Origin: Opitutia bacterium UBA7350
GTDB lineage: Bacteria > Verrucomicrobiota > Verrucomicrobiia > Opitutales > Coraliomargaritaceae
Direction of reading: 5' to 3'
Length of the DNA stretch: 64,000 bases
Assembly (NCBI GenBank): GCA_949524905.1
Contig: CATINC010000007.1
Coordinates: forward strand, 310,001 to 374,000
Below the pieces are notes generated by a model, which ran no database searches, was not told where the DNA came from, and saw only the letters and a list, made by a program, of their open reading frames with translations. A program made the position numbers and the translations under genes. Of this stretch, positions 5,974 through 59,548 are shown one piece after another (position 1 is the first letter of the stretch; each line of letters begins with the position of its first letter).

Positions 5974-7478
5974 TGAACGAAGGCTTAGCAGATTTTTTAC
6001 GCGGTATCGCAGCAACAAATGAATGGTGGTATATTATGCCGGAAATTTTGCTGGCGGTCCTCGCACTAGGTTTACTGGTGCTGGAATTGCTCTCGCCTGC
6101 TATTCGCAAGCATGTTCCCAGGGTAGCAATGGGAGGACTTGGTTTGATTTTGGCTTTACTATTGATGGTAGATTGTAGCGATTGCATGGGGGCAAATGGC
6201 CAGTCTGCTTTTGGGGGGCTTTTGCAGTCAAATGAATGGAGTCATTTGATGCGGGTCTTTTTTGTGTTCAGTGCTCTGATGGTGAGTTATCTCGGTGGGA
6301 TTTTCTTGGCGGGTCGTAATTTAGCGCAGTCGGAGTTTTATCATTTAGTTATTTTGGTAGCGGCTGCGATGATGCTTCTGGTGCAAAGCAACCATTTCGT
6401 GATGCTCTTTGTGGCCTTGGAAATGGCGACAGTGGCTTTCTATGTTCTGGTGGCGTATCGCCGCACAAGTTCGCTTTCATTAGAGGCTGGAATAAAATAT
6501 CTAATTTTGGGAGCCTTGAGCTCTTCCATTTTGCTCTTTGGGATTGTATTGCTTTATGGGGCAGGGGGGAATCCTGCTTTGCCTGGTGCAAGTGGCGACT
6601 CACTCAATTTTGATGCATTGGAAAGTTTTATAGCTTTAAATCCGGATAATCCCGTGGTTTTGACAGGTGCGATGTTAGTCCTAGCAGGAATTTGCTTTAA
6701 GATCGGTGCGGTGCCATTTCAGATTTGGGTGCCGGATGTTTACCAAGGTGCGCCTAATCCGGTGACGGCTTACCTAGCGATTGCGTCAAAGGCGGCCGGT
6801 TTTATGGTACTCTTGAGCTTATTGCATGGCCCCTTTCTTGCATTGCAGGATTTCCTATTACCTGTGCTGGTGTTCATTGCGGCAGCCTCTATTTTATTTG
6901 GCAATATTGCTGCGGTCATGCAGAGAAACTTGAAGCGTTTACTGGGTCTTTCGGGAATTGCGCATGCTGGCTACCTTTTAATCGGTGTTGCTGCTTCCTT
7001 TACGATTGAATGGGTCGACAACGCGGTGGTCTTTTATTTGATCACTTATCTGCTCGCATCGTTTGTGGTATTTTTAGTTCTCTCTTTGAGCGGCGAAGGC
7101 GATGACGCGGACTTAAACATAGAAAGATATGCTAACTTTTCGCGCGAACAACCATTCTTGAGTGGTGCTTTGACATGTGGTTTGGGTTCGCTCGCAGGCA
7201 TTCCACCGATGGGTGGATTTGTGGCGAAATTACTTTTGTTTGTAGCGGCTTTCCAGGCGGGGCTCTACGGTTTACTGGGGGTGGCGGTACTAGGGGTCGT
7301 TATCTCTGTTTACTACTATTTCGGCTGGATTCGCGCGCTGTATTTTAATGGCAGCAGTGTTACTGCTTTGGGTGAGGCTTCAAACGCGCCCACTTTGCAG
7401 AATCGTTTTGTATTGTGCGCCTTGGTGGTCGCTATCGTGGTATTGGGAATTTTTCCAGCCGTCGTGAGTTTGGTTTAA
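5973..7478 (+). CDS. nuoN: NADH-quinone oxidoreductase subunit N
   Basis: Third antiporter-like proton-pumping subunit, last gene of the classical nuo order. The 501-residue protein has about 14 transmembrane segments. Signatures include FVALEMATVAFYVLVAY (glutamate of helix 5), KIGAVPFQIWVPDVYQGAPN, VTAYLAIASKAAGF, and NLKRLLGLSGIAHAGYLLIG. It starts with an ATG overlapping the nuoM stop by one base. The gene ends only 8 nt before the stop of a leftward gene, and no hairpin with a T-run is visible at the end of the nuo operon. Confidence 0.97.
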   Translation: MNEGLADFLRGIAATNEWWYIMPEILLAVLALGLLVLELLSPAIRKHVPRVAMGGLGLILALLLMVDCSDCMGANGQSAFGGLLQSNEWSHLMRVFFVFSALMVSYLGGIFLAGRNLAQSEFYHLVILVAAAMMLLVQSNHFVMLFVALEMATVAFYVLVAYRRTSSLSLEAGIKYLILGALSSSILLFGIVLLYGAGGNPALPGASGDSLNFDALESFIALNPDNPVVLTGAMLVLAGICFKIGAVPFQIWVPDVYQGAPNPVTAYLAIASKAAGFMVLLSLLHGPFLALQDFLLPVLVFIAAASILFGNIAAVMQRNLKRLLGLSGIAHAGYLLIGVAASFTIEWVDNAVVFYLITYLLASFVVFLVLSLSGEGDDADLNIERYANFSREQPFLSGALTCGLGSLAGIPPMGGFVAKLLLFVAAFQAGLYGLLGVAVLGVVISVYYYFGWIRALYFNGSSVTALGEASNAPTLQNRFVLCALVVAIVVLGIFPAVVSLV

Positions 7479-7486
7479 TCGAAAGC

Positions 7487-9049
7487 CTATTCGACCGCTT
7501 CAGTTTTTAGGTCTAGGTACGGTTTTCTTTGCCGTATTTTATTGGCTTCAAATTTTAGGTTACAGCTTTCAAGAAAATTAGCGGCTTCCTCCAGAAAGAG
7601 ACGGTCATTCGTTTCTTCCCGCAGGATATAGCGGAATTCTCGAAGTGCGTTGTTGCGTTGGTTGGCATCCCGCATGGTACGGGCTAACATTTTGCGAATT
7701 TCGATGCGTTCAGGTTCTTCCTCGAGAATGGACTGCATCATTAAGATAAGAGTATCTTTGTTCGTATCTTCGTGTTGATAGCGAAGTATGCTCTTCAGGT
7801 ATGCAATTTTTGCTTCGGTAGAATTGGGCCATTGTTTTGAAATGGAGTGCCATAGATCGGTTGGGGTCTTTACCTCTAAAGCATGGGAGAAACTTAAGAT
7901 GAAAAGAATCCCCACTATGACATAAAGTACAAGGTTACGCATCATTTCCGCCAAAATACCTAACTTTGTGCTCAGTTTTACAACAATTAACACCGAGGAA
8001 GCACACAGGGCTGCGAGGGCAGGATAATAATTAAATAATTCATATGCAGGCATTCCATTGATGAAATTTGCACGTATAAAAATGACGGGAATGATCAGTA
8101 AAGTATAGCTGATAACACCTAGAAGGAGATTCCGTGCCCAATGATGTCCACGGTTTAAAATACCCAGCAGAAGGAAGGGTACAGAAAGAAGAAAAGGTGC
8201 TAGGTTAATACCTGAATTAAGAGCATATCCCGAGTTATTGGGAAGGGCTTTAAAAAAATCCAAATCAGTTGGCAGAAAGCTCTTTTTGAGCAAGTACTGC
8301 ATATTGTGCCCTCCGGCGTAGCTCCATTCGCTCAAAACAAAAACGCTAGATCCAGAATTATTCTGACCTAAAAGCCAAACGCCTAAGAAAAGGTTGATGC
8401 AAAGTATGGGAAGGATCCAGTTATACTGACTTAATTGTGGGGGATGTTCTTTACAGTAGGTTAGCAGTGCAAAAATAGCAGGGAGGAAGATCAGGTTTAT
8501 GTGAATGAAAAGTCCTATGGTCGAGAGCGCAAGTAGGGCAAGATAACGCCATGGGTTTAAGGAGCCGGCTGCCAAATTGAGTGCGCCTAGCATAATAATG
8601 AAGCCGAGTATTACATGCCGGAAGCCGGGCCAAAAAAGAACGGGAATGACGGATGGGTGTAGTGCGAAGATCAATACCGCAAGCCAGGTGTGGCGCAGGC
8701 GTATTTTTCGTAAAAAATACCAAAAGAGCCATACCGCAATACAGTGAAGGCTTATGTTGATGACGCGGTGGACAATCGCTGGATTCTGGGCAAGGGCTTC
8801 CAAATGATAGGAGCTCAAGCTAATGGGATCGTGTTTACGGATCTTTTGAACGGTCCATGCATCCGACCACTTGGCGGTTTCATGAAAGCCGCTTTGTGTT
8901 GCAGGATCATACTCACTCCACAATTCGCTAGTGAGAAGCAAAGGGCTGAAGCATAGGAGAATCAGCCCAAAGAGGATGGCACATTGCCAGAAGCTTGCCG
9001 CTTCTCTTTTGCGTCGCAGATGACGCAATGGTAAGTTGGATTCTGTCAT
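7487..9049 (-). CDS. GT-C/TMTC-like multi-spanning membrane protein with C-terminal helical repeats, function unknown
   Basis: Not recognised as a named gene. The first about 390 residues hold roughly ten hydrophobic helices. Two early parts, VHRVINISLHCIAVWLFWYF and FALHPSVIPVLFWPGFRHVI, resemble the corresponding loops of TMTC/DUF1736-type membrane proteins that carry TPR tails; this is my reading, not a search result. The C-terminal about 110 residues (from LILMMQSILEEEPERIEIR) look like TPR-type helical pairs. No catalytic residue can be assigned. A TTG at 9070 would extend the N-terminus by seven residues and overlap the upstream gene by 4 nt; the ATG at 9049 is preferred. Probably co-transcribed with the DUF192 lipoprotein upstream. 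Confidence 0.7.
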   Translation of the reverse strand: MTESNLPLRHLRRKREAASFWQCAILFGLILLCFSPLLLTSELWSEYDPATQSGFHETAKWSDAWTVQKIRKHDPISLSSYHLEALAQNPAIVHRVINISLHCIAVWLFWYFLRKIRLRHTWLAVLIFALHPSVIPVLFWPGFRHVILGFIIMLGALNLAAGSLNPWRYLALLALSTIGLFIHINLIFLPAIFALLTYCKEHPPQLSQYNWILPILCINLFLGVWLLGQNNSGSSVFVLSEWSYAGGHNMQYLLKKSFLPTDLDFFKALPNNSGYALNSGINLAPFLLSVPFLLLGILNRGHHWARNLLLGVISYTLLIIPVIFIRANFINGMPAYELFNYYPALAALCASSVLIVVKLSTKLGILAEMMRNLVLYVIVGILFILSFSHALEVKTPTDLWHSISKQWPNSTEAKIAYLKSILRYQHEDTNKDTLILMMQSILEEEPERIEIRKMLARTMRDANQRNNALREFRYILREETNDRLFLEEAANFLESCNLKFEANKIRQRKPYLDLKTEAVE

Positions 9050-55765: not shown

Positions 55766-56140
55766 ATGGAGATTGAAACTTTTCCAAATCCCAGTCCGGA
55801 ACGCGATTATACGATTCAGCACATACAAGAAGAGTTTACTTCGACTTGCCCGATGACGGGTCATCCCGATTACGCTACGGTCGTGTTCAGTTATGCTCCT
55901 GGAGAAATTTGCCTCGAGTTAAAATCAATGAAGCTCTATCTGCATAGCTTCCGCAACAAGGGAATTTTTTTTGAGGCGGCTACCAATAAGATTTTTGATG
56001 ATTTGTACAAAGCATCCAAGCCGAGGTGGGCACGACTGGAAACTATTTGGCGCGGACGAGGTGGGATTCGCTCAAACGTAGTTGTGGAATCACAGGCGGA
56101 GGATTACCCAGGACCTAAGACTGAACCCTTCAAGGCTTGA
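55766..56140 (+). CDS. queF: NADPH-dependent preQ0 reductase (7-cyano-7-deazaguanine reductase)
   Basis: Reduces the nitrile of preQ0 to preQ1 in queuosine synthesis. The short, unimodular type I form (124 residues) has the catalytic Cys and Asp in FTSTCPMTGHPDYATVVFSY, then ICLELKSMKLYLHSFRNKGI with the QueF motif and the Glu/His substrate residues in FFEAATNKIFDDL. It is 35 nt after ftsH, possibly co-transcribed; queA lies just left of tilS. Its 3' end overlaps the Deg-like gene on the other strand by 11 nt. Confidence 0.95.
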   Translation: MEIETFPNPSPERDYTIQHIQEEFTSTCPMTGHPDYATVVFSYAPGEICLELKSMKLYLHSFRNKGIFFEAATNKIFDDLYKASKPRWARLETIWRGRGGIRSNVVVESQAEDYPGPKTEPFKA

Positions 56141-57608
56141 GTGGATCAACCCCCCTAGAGGCACTGCGTATTCGGTAGTGTTGGAGGACTCTTTCGGTGG
56201 CATCTTGCAGGGTCTTAGCTTTCAATACGAGATGCTTCAAATTGAAATCATCCATGAATTTGAGGTGGTGAAATCCGTTGAGTGGGTTTGCAAATGCGTG
56301 CGCTACGTCTTCGAGTGTATGGATCGGAAGACCGTTGATGCAATCAAGCATGAGGGGGCCGATATTTTCGTAGTCGAGGTTGTAATCGTCGGGTAAAACA
56401 CTCGTTAAAACAACCAGCGAGGGTCGTCCAATTTCAGGCTGCATTTCTTGAAAATAATCCATGGCGCCCGAGCTCGTTTTGCTGAGGGCCTGCATCAGCG
56501 GATCATCCATAGGTTGAAAAATAAGACCGCCAGCGATAAGGTATCGCGGTTCAGCATCTTGCTGACGGCTAGGAACAAGCCCTTGGTTGTAATCGACTCG
56601 AGGTAGGAGATAGTTAATGGTCTGCATCTGTCGGTCACGCCAGATTTCCATGGGGATGGTTTCGCCGGTGGCATGGCTTCGGGAAGACAGCCCTTTAAAG
56701 GAAAGCCGTCCGTATTTTGGGTCGATATATTTGCCTTCCTTGTCGATGGTAAAGCCATCGATCTTGAGAATGACATCACCCTCACGAAGGGAGGTAGCTT
56801 CCTTTTTAAGAATTCCAGTACGGGTAACAATAATTCCTCCGCTAGATTTTGGATCAAGGCCTTTGGATTTAAGCAAGGCTGGGTTGTTGCTCGGCATCCA
56901 ATAAAAATCAAAGAAGCCGTGTCCCATCCCTTCGCCACAGGGTCCACGTTCAAGAGCGGCCGCAATAAAAGTAGCCGGTAAAATCATGATTTGTTTATTT
57001 TTAGAACCAGAGGTTGTGAGTCCAACTAGGCGGTTGCCATCCATTACGATCTCGGACCAACCAGCGGCATTCATTTCACTGGAGGCAAGTAAAACGAGAT
57101 GGGCGAGCTTACTCAGTTTGGCAGAACCTACATAGAGACGAACAATTTCGGCAGTGCGTTCCTCGATACGCCCAGAGCGCCAACGATAAACTTGTAGGTT
57201 TCCGTTTTGCGGTATGTCTGGGGCAAATATGACAGGTTCGACTTCGAGCCAAAATTCGGGATCTGCGACTCTGAGAATAGCGATATTAGCCTGAAAATCA
57301 ATCGAGCTAAGGGTGGCCTCATAGCGTTTACTTTCACCGCCTTTGCGAATGCGGTAGCTTGCGTCAAAACGCAGTCCATCTGCAGTGGTAAGAATTTGAT
57401 GATGATCAATAATGAGACCGTTTTTATTTCCGGTTTGATTATTGGTAAGCCAGGGTTGTTTATAGCTGTAGGATTTTTTGGTGACCTCGATTTCGACAAG
57501 CGACTCTTCTGCCTGAAAGGATGCATCATTCTTCCATGGAAGCGCGGCGAGTGGTAACCCGAACCAGGTTATGATGAGCCAGATGCTAATAGTTTTATTC
57601 ATGATCAT
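56130..57608 (-). CDS. Deg/HtrA-like pseudoprotease with PDZ domain (triad replaced)
   Basis: Exported protein of 492 residues (signal MIMNKTISIWLIITWFGLPL) with the same layout as the upstream Deg-like protease: trypsin-like domain, PDZ domain (about residues 240-340) and a related C-terminal domain. Aligned by eye to that paralogue, the catalytic His is Asp77 (TTADG), the Asp is Asn108, and GNSGG is AGWSE with Trp174 at the Ser position. Proteolysis is therefore unlikely. It may be a regulatory or chaperone partner of the active copy. The ATG overlaps the upstream gene stop by 14 nt (ATG 57602 is an alternative). Confidence 0.8.
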   Translation of the reverse strand: MIMNKTISIWLIITWFGLPLAALPWKNDASFQAEESLVEIEVTKKSYSYKQPWLTNNQTGNKNGLIIDHHQILTTADGLRFDASYRIRKGGESKRYEATLSSIDFQANIAILRVADPEFWLEVEPVIFAPDIPQNGNLQVYRWRSGRIEERTAEIVRLYVGSAKLSKLAHLVLLASSEMNAAGWSEIVMDGNRLVGLTTSGSKNKQIMILPATFIAAALERGPCGEGMGHGFFDFYWMPSNNPALLKSKGLDPKSSGGIIVTRTGILKKEATSLREGDVILKIDGFTIDKEGKYIDPKYGRLSFKGLSSRSHATGETIPMEIWRDRQMQTINYLLPRVDYNQGLVPSRQQDAEPRYLIAGGLIFQPMDDPLMQALSKTSSGAMDYFQEMQPEIGRPSLVVLTSVLPDDYNLDYENIGPLMLDCINGLPIHTLEDVAHAFANPLNGFHHLKFMDDFNLKHLVLKAKTLQDATERVLQHYRIRSASRGVDPLKP

Positions 57609-59055
57609 GAATCCGACAGGTGGCGGGAATTTGGTATGCTTTTAGGAGGGCTTGATCGATAGCGTCGGCGTTTTCAACCTCGAGTGCTTCCATCATGTGA
57701 TTGGAAAATACAAAAAGATGGAAGCCATCGACCGGGCTTTGGAGTGCGGCTTGAAGGTCTTGCATCGATTGAATCGGCTGGTCGTTTAGATGAGTTAGGA
57801 TCAAGCGCTTCGGAATGCGCAGGTCAATATTACCTGGGTGATTTAGTTTGCTGGAGAGGAGGATGGGTTTTGCGCGAGAAGAATCCTCATCCTGTAGATT
57901 GCGGTAAAAGAGTTGGTAAAGGAGCTCAGCATCATTGCTGCGTTGGTCGCGATCCAGATCGCGAAGGAAGTCTAGGCTGAGTTCGGTAAAGACGAGTCCG
58001 CCAATCATAAGGTAAGGTGGTGGGGTATCATACTGTCGGCCACTGAGACGGTCTTCGGTATTTGCAAAGACGGGCAAATCGATGGATTGCTCGGTACCAT
58101 CGCGCCATATTTTGACCGGTACTTTTTCTTGGTGCTGGGCATTATCAAAGAGAACACTCGCTTGCATACGATTTCCTTTGTAGAGAATCATGCCATCGCT
58201 CCCAACTGAGTAGCCGTCAATTTCAAGGAGGACGTCGTTTTCTTTAATAAGCTGACGCGTTTCTGGGTAGGGCTCCAGAATGTAGTCGATTCGCGCACCC
58301 TCACCATTTGGTAATTGAAGGTATTCACGGAAGGCAGGGTTGTGCAGGGATGCGACATTAAAGCCGGCATCGGGAAAACCATGGTAGTATCCGTCTTCGA
58401 TATCCTTAAGGAAATGATGGATGATTTCGGGTGGAATAATAAAGCCAGCATTTTCCAGCTCAGGGTTGCCTTGAAAAGAGACGCCCACAACGAAACCATC
58501 CTGAATAGCAGGGCCGCCGCTGTTACCTGGATTCAGAGCGGCATCGGTTTGTAAAGTGAGGAAGTGGCGATTAAAGATGTGCGAATAGCGCTGGATTTCA
58601 ATACGCGAGATGACCCCGCTAGTGTAGGAGATTTGCTGACCGCCCGCAGGGTAACCGTAGGTGGTCACAGAGGAGCGGACCGCGGGGAGTTCACCGATCT
58701 CAAGTGGAGTAAGGCCTTCGAAGAAGGCGGGGTCGTCCACTTTAAGGACCGCTAGGTCACAGTCGTGGCCAATGAATTCGATGCTGGCTCGGTAGGGTTG
58801 AGGGTCTTGATAACGAAAAACTAATAGTTGGCGCGACCAACTGACCACATGGGCATTGGTCATGATGCGGTTGCCTTTGATGACAAACCCGCTACCAGCA
58901 CCCGGGGTTACCTGCGAGAATTTCCAAGGTTCCTGCCAGTCGGGCAATTGGCTGAAATTGATGATCTTAACAACAGCGCGTTCAGCTTCGTTTGCCTGAA
59001 GAAAGCTACTAATGAGGACGCAAAGGAGGAAAATTTTATTTCTGAAACGTAGCAT
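57595..59055 (-). CDS. Deg/HtrA-like serine protease with PDZ domains
   Basis: Exported trypsin-like protease of about 486 residues. Signal peptide (FLLCVLISSFLQANEAE); catalytic triad H69 in NRIMTNAHVV, D100 in GHDCDLAVLKV and S179 in AALNPGNSGGPA. A PDZ domain follows (about residues 225-320, VLLEIDGYSVGSDGMILYKG) and a second PDZ-like domain at the end (LILTHLNDQPIQSMQDL). The overall pattern resembles Deg proteases of the plant Deg2/Deg9 type more than E. coli DegP. Preferred start is ATG 59055; a TTG at 59067 is also in frame. It is coupled to the pseudoprotease gene downstream. Confidence 0.88.
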   Translation of the reverse strand: MLRFRNKIFLLCVLISSFLQANEAERAVVKIINFSQLPDWQEPWKFSQVTPGAGSGFVIKGNRIMTNAHVVSWSRQLLVFRYQDPQPYRASIEFIGHDCDLAVLKVDDPAFFEGLTPLEIGELPAVRSSVTTYGYPAGGQQISYTSGVISRIEIQRYSHIFNRHFLTLQTDAALNPGNSGGPAIQDGFVVGVSFQGNPELENAGFIIPPEIIHHFLKDIEDGYYHGFPDAGFNVASLHNPAFREYLQLPNGEGARIDYILEPYPETRQLIKENDVLLEIDGYSVGSDGMILYKGNRMQASVLFDNAQHQEKVPVKIWRDGTEQSIDLPVFANTEDRLSGRQYDTPPPYLMIGGLVFTELSLDFLRDLDRDQRSNDAELLYQLFYRNLQDEDSSRAKPILLSSKLNHPGNIDLRIPKRLILTHLNDQPIQSMQDLQAALQSPVDGFHLFVFSNHMMEALEVENADAIDQALLKAYQIPATCRIHDHE

Positions 59056-59086: not shown

Positions 59087-59548
59087 TCAAGTCCGGACCT
59101 GTAAAACCGCTTGCAATTCAACCGTAGAGTTTAGAGGGAGTCCCGTGACTGCAAGAGCGGCACGGGTATGGCATCCAGCATCTCCAAGGATTTCGACGAG
59201 GGCATCTGAAGCCCCGTTGATCACCGCAGGGCTATCTGGAAAACTAGGCACTGCGTTGACAAATCCATTGAGTTGAAGGACTGCTTCGACGGAGTCGAGA
59301 GAACCTAGATGCGTGCGAGCAACCGCAAGGAGATTAAGGGCGCAAATGCGGGCAGCGGCTTGACCGTAGGCAATGTCTCGATCAATACCTACTTTGCCAG
59401 TATGGGTCATGGCATCATCAACGCGACAGATGGCACCTGAAAGGAACAATAAGTTGCCGTTTTGGCGGGCGGGCAGGTAATTGCCGGCGGGGACAGGTGC
59501 TGTTGGCAGCGAAATTTTAAGTTCAGAAATTCTTTTTTCTATGCTCAT
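59087..59548 (-). CDS. RidA (YjgF/YER057c/UK114) family protein
   Basis: Small cytoplasmic protein of 153 residues of the YjgF_UK114-like type. RidA proteins hydrolyse reactive enamine/imine intermediates of PLP enzymes. The pattern is GNYLPARQNGNLLFLSGAIC, GQAAARICALNLLAVARTHL, FVNAVPSFPDSPAVINGASD and the C-terminal TRAALAVTGLPLNSTVELQA with the conserved Arg. It belongs to the longer RidA-like branch rather than the short archetype. It is 31 nt upstream of the Deg-like protease and just after the symporter gene. Confidence 0.9.
   Translation of the reverse strand: MSIEKRISELKISLPTAPVPAGNYLPARQNGNLLFLSGAICRVDDAMTHTGKVGIDRDIAYGQAAARICALNLLAVARTHLGSLDSVEAVLQLNGFVNAVPSFPDSPAVINGASDALVEILGDAGCHTRAALAVTGLPLNSTVELQAVLQVRT

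Follow-up and report, generated by a model that had tools for sequence, protein, structure and literature searches.

Why should a gene for an exported protease be followed, in overlapping frames, by a second gene for a protein of the same architecture whose active site is lost? The question is raised by two genes of Opitutia bacterium UBA7350, found in a 64,000-nucleotide stretch of DNA that was analysed as a whole and is called the window below. Gene A (57595-59055, minus strand) encodes a Deg2/Deg9-type serine protease of 486 aa, composed of a trypsin domain, PDZ1 and PDZ_3, with an intact catalytic triad. Gene B (56130-57608, minus strand) encodes a pseudoprotease of 492 aa built in the same way, its triad replaced by D77, N108 and W184. 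Both proteins are taken as exported: their N-termini are hydrophobic and, by inspection, signal-peptide-like. The common picture of an HtrA protease is that of a homo-oligomer.

The two open reading frames are intact, with A upstream, translated from the ATG at 59055, and B downstream. The end of A and the start of B share 14 nt (57595-57608, minus strand) if B begins at the ATG at 57608; a second in-frame ATG at 57602 reduces the overlap to 8 nt. An ATGA-type overlap of exactly 4 nt is found in 56 of 78 homologous loci, and translational coupling of A and B through the stop/start overlap is likely. Aligned with each other from end to end, A and B share about 25% identity. The first-pass annotation of this DNA had proposed just such a tandem of overlapping paralogous genes, a Deg protease followed by a pseudoprotease, and its description holds for both frames.

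The catalytic residues of A were located by aligning A with B and by an alignment of 49 homologous pairs: His69 (codon 58849-58851), Asp100 (58756-58758) and Ser179 (58519-58521), the latter within NPGNSGGP. A thus carries the triad of an active HtrA enzyme. In B, the same places are taken by Asp77 (57378-57380), Asn108 (57285-57287) and Trp184 (57057-57059; all six codons on the minus strand), in agreement with the Asp, Asn and Trp read there originally. Aligning the orthologues had been suggested as a check on the triad loss; across the 49 pairs it moved no nearby Ser or His into the site of B, and the GNSGGP motif is absent from B.

The same division is found in relatives. In all 49 tandem pairs the upstream member has His, Asp and Ser; the downstream member lacks Ser in all 49 and His in 47. 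Eighty loci from named genomes, found with A alone, gave a complete triad for A in 78 (it is truncated in the other 2) and for B in none. The residues that took their place in B are often the same: D, Q or E for His in 73 of 78 named loci, N for Asp in 76 of 78, and W for Ser in 56 of the 77 that are readable. In 15 further pairs from one genus, A keeps its triad and B is dead, its Ser often changed to Ala. The Ser position of B is aromatic in two of three clades, and to judge from the sequence such a residue would plug the site. In one of the three clades, and also in one genus, the replacement residues vary widely, and none of them taken singly is therefore essential. Within one genus (L210, L216-L222) B evolves very fast and has diverse residues at the former active-site positions, while those of A are fixed.

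Outside the active site, B has kept the form of the enzyme. Pfam recognised Trypsin_2 (6e-21) and PDZ_3 (2.9e-18) in A, both over cut-off; in B, PDZ_3 is found over cut-off (2.6e-24) and Trypsin_2 at a sub-threshold 0.18, and the scan of B gave nothing beyond PDZ_3 and weak PDZ/trypsin matches. The C-terminal PDZ_3 domain (PF17815) that marks the Deg2/Deg9 type is thus present in both proteins, at 57619-58038 in A and 56160-56576 in B (minus strand). A search of 14 control genomes for this family found none; in the genome under study, another Trypsin_2 protein is encoded on contig C4. The best PDB sequence matches of both proteins are plant Deg2/Deg9 (A to 4fln, 5e-69; B to 5il9, 8e-28). AlphaFold models, built on alignments of the homologous loci gathered for this analysis, were confident (pLDDT 92.7 for A and 90.0 for B) and lie closest to Deg9/Deg2 over their full length, with Z 42.6 over 457 residues for A and Z 36.0 over 449 residues for B. 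Because the match extends over the full length, B is, as modelled, a complete HtrA subunit whose active site is dead. The initial reading that B retains the overall domains and the C-terminal architecture of A is borne out by both the PDZ_3 match and the fold.

The pair is kept together across much of Verrucomicrobiota; neither this spread nor the plant Deg2/Deg9 type of the pair had been recognised in the initial reading. The genomes came from similarity searches or GTDB samples. Many of them are draft assemblies, and some are common to more than one of the locus sets. Of 388 genomes of the phylum searched with B, 151 gave homologues, often as adjacent pairs, and 49 of 61 regions examined contain two adjacent homologues; these are the 49 tandem pairs, which were drawn by similarity. 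The 80 named-genome loci were drawn using the C-terminal part of A alone: B lies directly downstream in 78, and the remaining two stop at a contig edge. With more than 100 other loci repeating it, the arrangement is well beyond chance. In the family of the window, both genes are present in 12 of 44 genomes and neither in 31, the last one having a fragment at a contig end. Two genomes have B unlinked from A, each with an A-like protease elsewhere. Several lineages have an A-like protease without B, so B is not needed everywhere by this type of protease. A degenerate-pattern search based on the phylum-wide alignment of B was dropped, no stretch being conserved enough.

A few loci depart from this arrangement. 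In two drafts (L128:6876-8272 and L136:6876-8289) B is split in two frames, either because of errors in the assembly or because B has been lost locally. L066, from another family of the order, has a divergent single-copy PDZ_3 protease (7193-8857, with AINRGNSGGP) and no B; other genomes of that family also give a single PDZ_3 match, and the protein may be a separate paralogue.

No neighbour beyond the pair is conserved phylum-wide. About 30 bp upstream of A lies a RidA-like gene (59087-59548, minus strand), preceded by a dicarboxylate-symporter-like gene and then KsgA, which are conserved only within the group of the window. On the other side, a plus-strand gene (55766-56140), whose product looks by sequence like a QueF-type enzyme, converges on B and overlaps its end by 11 nt (56130-56140); eight other loci also have a QueF-like gene after B. 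The RidA-like gene upstream and the QueF-like gene downstream are confined to nine loci, all from the group of the window. The other neighbours differ between families while the A/B pair persists.

How B arose was read from a tree rooted on plant Deg2/Deg9, made without the most divergent, long-branch rows and some near-duplicates. B forms one clade (100/100) and A another (97/86), and single-copy A-like proteases of other lineages branch outside both; a first quick tree of all rows, very long branches included, had split B with weak support. The rooted tree shows B as the product of one tandem duplication of A in a verrucomicrobial ancestor, with an early loss of the triad and vertical inheritance together with A under purifying selection. 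This topology fits one duplication that took place in an ancestor of the lineages with the pair and postdates the separation of those with a single copy. Over 38 genomes the distances of A and B correlate with r 0.92, and the two trees have 19 of 35 splits in common, a mirroring to be expected from vertical inheritance alone.

Could B simply be a pseudogene decaying beside A? Its evolutionary rate is about 1.46 times that of A, and its frame is split at two loci, but we regard this reading as refuted, with practically nothing left of its probability. Neither relaxed selection nor generally broken frames were found: B is intact in nearly all loci and in close species pairs its dN/dS of 0.02-0.16, far below 1, stands beside 0.03-0.17 for A (wider pairs were saturated and left out), so that purifying selection acts on B as strongly as on A. 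Its single ancient origin and the conservation of B-specific motifs also stand against decay. The check proposed from the window's sequence, whether the pair and the triad loss are conserved in related genomes, came out positive in the 49 tandem pairs, the 78 A-based loci and the 15 pairs of one genus, and random decay of the orthologues of B was looked for and not found. Of the interpretation offered at that time, the conserved dead partner stands; the roles it had listed for that partner, in a mixed complex, in control of activity or as a chaperone or adaptor, are candidates. B might also have gained a new activity where the triad used to be, exerted through Asn, Trp and the conserved residue that is acidic or an amide. 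This would agree with the marked preference of the 78 named loci for D/Q/E, N and W, but unrelated residues take these places in other clades, so no common chemistry is conserved, and we consider a new activity very improbable.

Mean identity within A is highest in the protease domain (0.55, against 0.38 in PDZ1 and 0.32 in PDZ_3), whereas within B the protease domain is the least conserved (0.29, against 0.34 and 0.33); compared with A, constraint in B has moved away from the protease domain and towards the PDZ domains. PDZ1 of B has a motif of its own, D285, Y290, D292 and G295 in the numbering of A, conserved at 94-96%. Both observations, a constraint on the PDZ domains at least equal to that on the protease fold and a B-specific PDZ1 motif, are in line with B as an independent periplasmic chaperone or adaptor whose PDZ domains hold clients or pass them to A without a stable mixed oligomer, as is the retention of B in the two genomes that carry it apart from A. 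However, the strong stop/start overlap, and the finding that genomes have both genes or neither, speak rather for a partner in fixed stoichiometry, and B has kept the entire protease fold together with P43 and W44, which precede the protease core and are invariant in all A, all B and Deg2/Deg9. We hold an independent chaperone or adaptor to be a real but minority prospect. Alternatively, B could be an inhibitor or decoy that takes subunit positions or substrate and leaves A resting until a signal is sensed. HtrA enzymes can be held in inactive states, and the aromatic residue at the Ser position in two of three clades fits a plugged site. MamO, the nearest studied case, activates instead (PMC4794232), and inhibition seems to us unlikely, more so than the chaperone role.

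As a dead twin kept with A across much of the phylum, B is almost certainly a working partner, and a functional, non-catalytic protein working with A is what we can propose with high confidence. That the two work together is supported indirectly, by their linkage, the ATGA overlap, their joint gain and loss and the mirrored trees. The explanation we prefer, by a modest balance of probability, is a co-translated exported pair in which dead B sits in a mixed HtrA oligomer with A and supplies PDZ and regulatory functions. B would fold as an HtrA subunit and enter one periplasmic oligomer with A; its PDZ domains and plugged site may then regulate A, scaffold it or recruit its substrate, with no cutting by B itself. 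For the narrower proposal that B joins A directly in a mixed oligomer and controls it there, the chances look evenly divided. The boldest form, to which we give slightly less than even credence, is an obligate mixed HtrA machine across much of the phylum, with dead subunits from one ancient duplication as its structural and sensory parts: a two-gene bacterial counterpart of Deg7. If true, this would be a natural and widespread hetero-HtrA system, ancient and vertically inherited, that would allow a direct test of what dead subunits do. In the open-licence literature we found no paper linking pseudoproteases to Verrucomicrobiota HtrA and no description of the pair.

In architecture (trypsin-PDZ-PDZ_3) and fold, A and B resemble plant Deg2/Deg9 (4fln, 5il9), which are, however, single active proteases with no dead twin in one operon. 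Joined active and degenerate halves, as in Deg7, are known from the fungal Nma111p type. Deg7 itself, derived from a whole-gene duplication, joins an active half to a degenerate one, both made up of a protease and two PDZ domains, and it trimerises through the degenerate protease domain (PMC4754418, PMC3473262). The combination of an active with a degenerate HtrA unit is shared with A/B, but Deg7 is one fused eukaryotic polypeptide and A/B are two overlapping bacterial ORFs: the likeness described here is one of architecture. In Arabidopsis, a mixed hexamer has been proposed for the HtrA paralogues Deg5 and Deg8 (PMC4754418); Deg8 keeps His171/Asp214/Ser292 and Deg5 keeps Ser266 (PMC3640471), so that, unlike A and B, they are no dead-twin pair. 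MamE and MamO are, like A and B, an HtrA protease and an HtrA pseudoprotease, and MamO, without an active site of its own, is needed for MamE proteolysis (PMC4794232). MamO differs in having a TauE transporter domain and metal binding, whereas B has PDZ_3 and no TauE domain. With Deg7 and MamO/MamE as its two precedents, a mixed oligomer of A and B is plausible.
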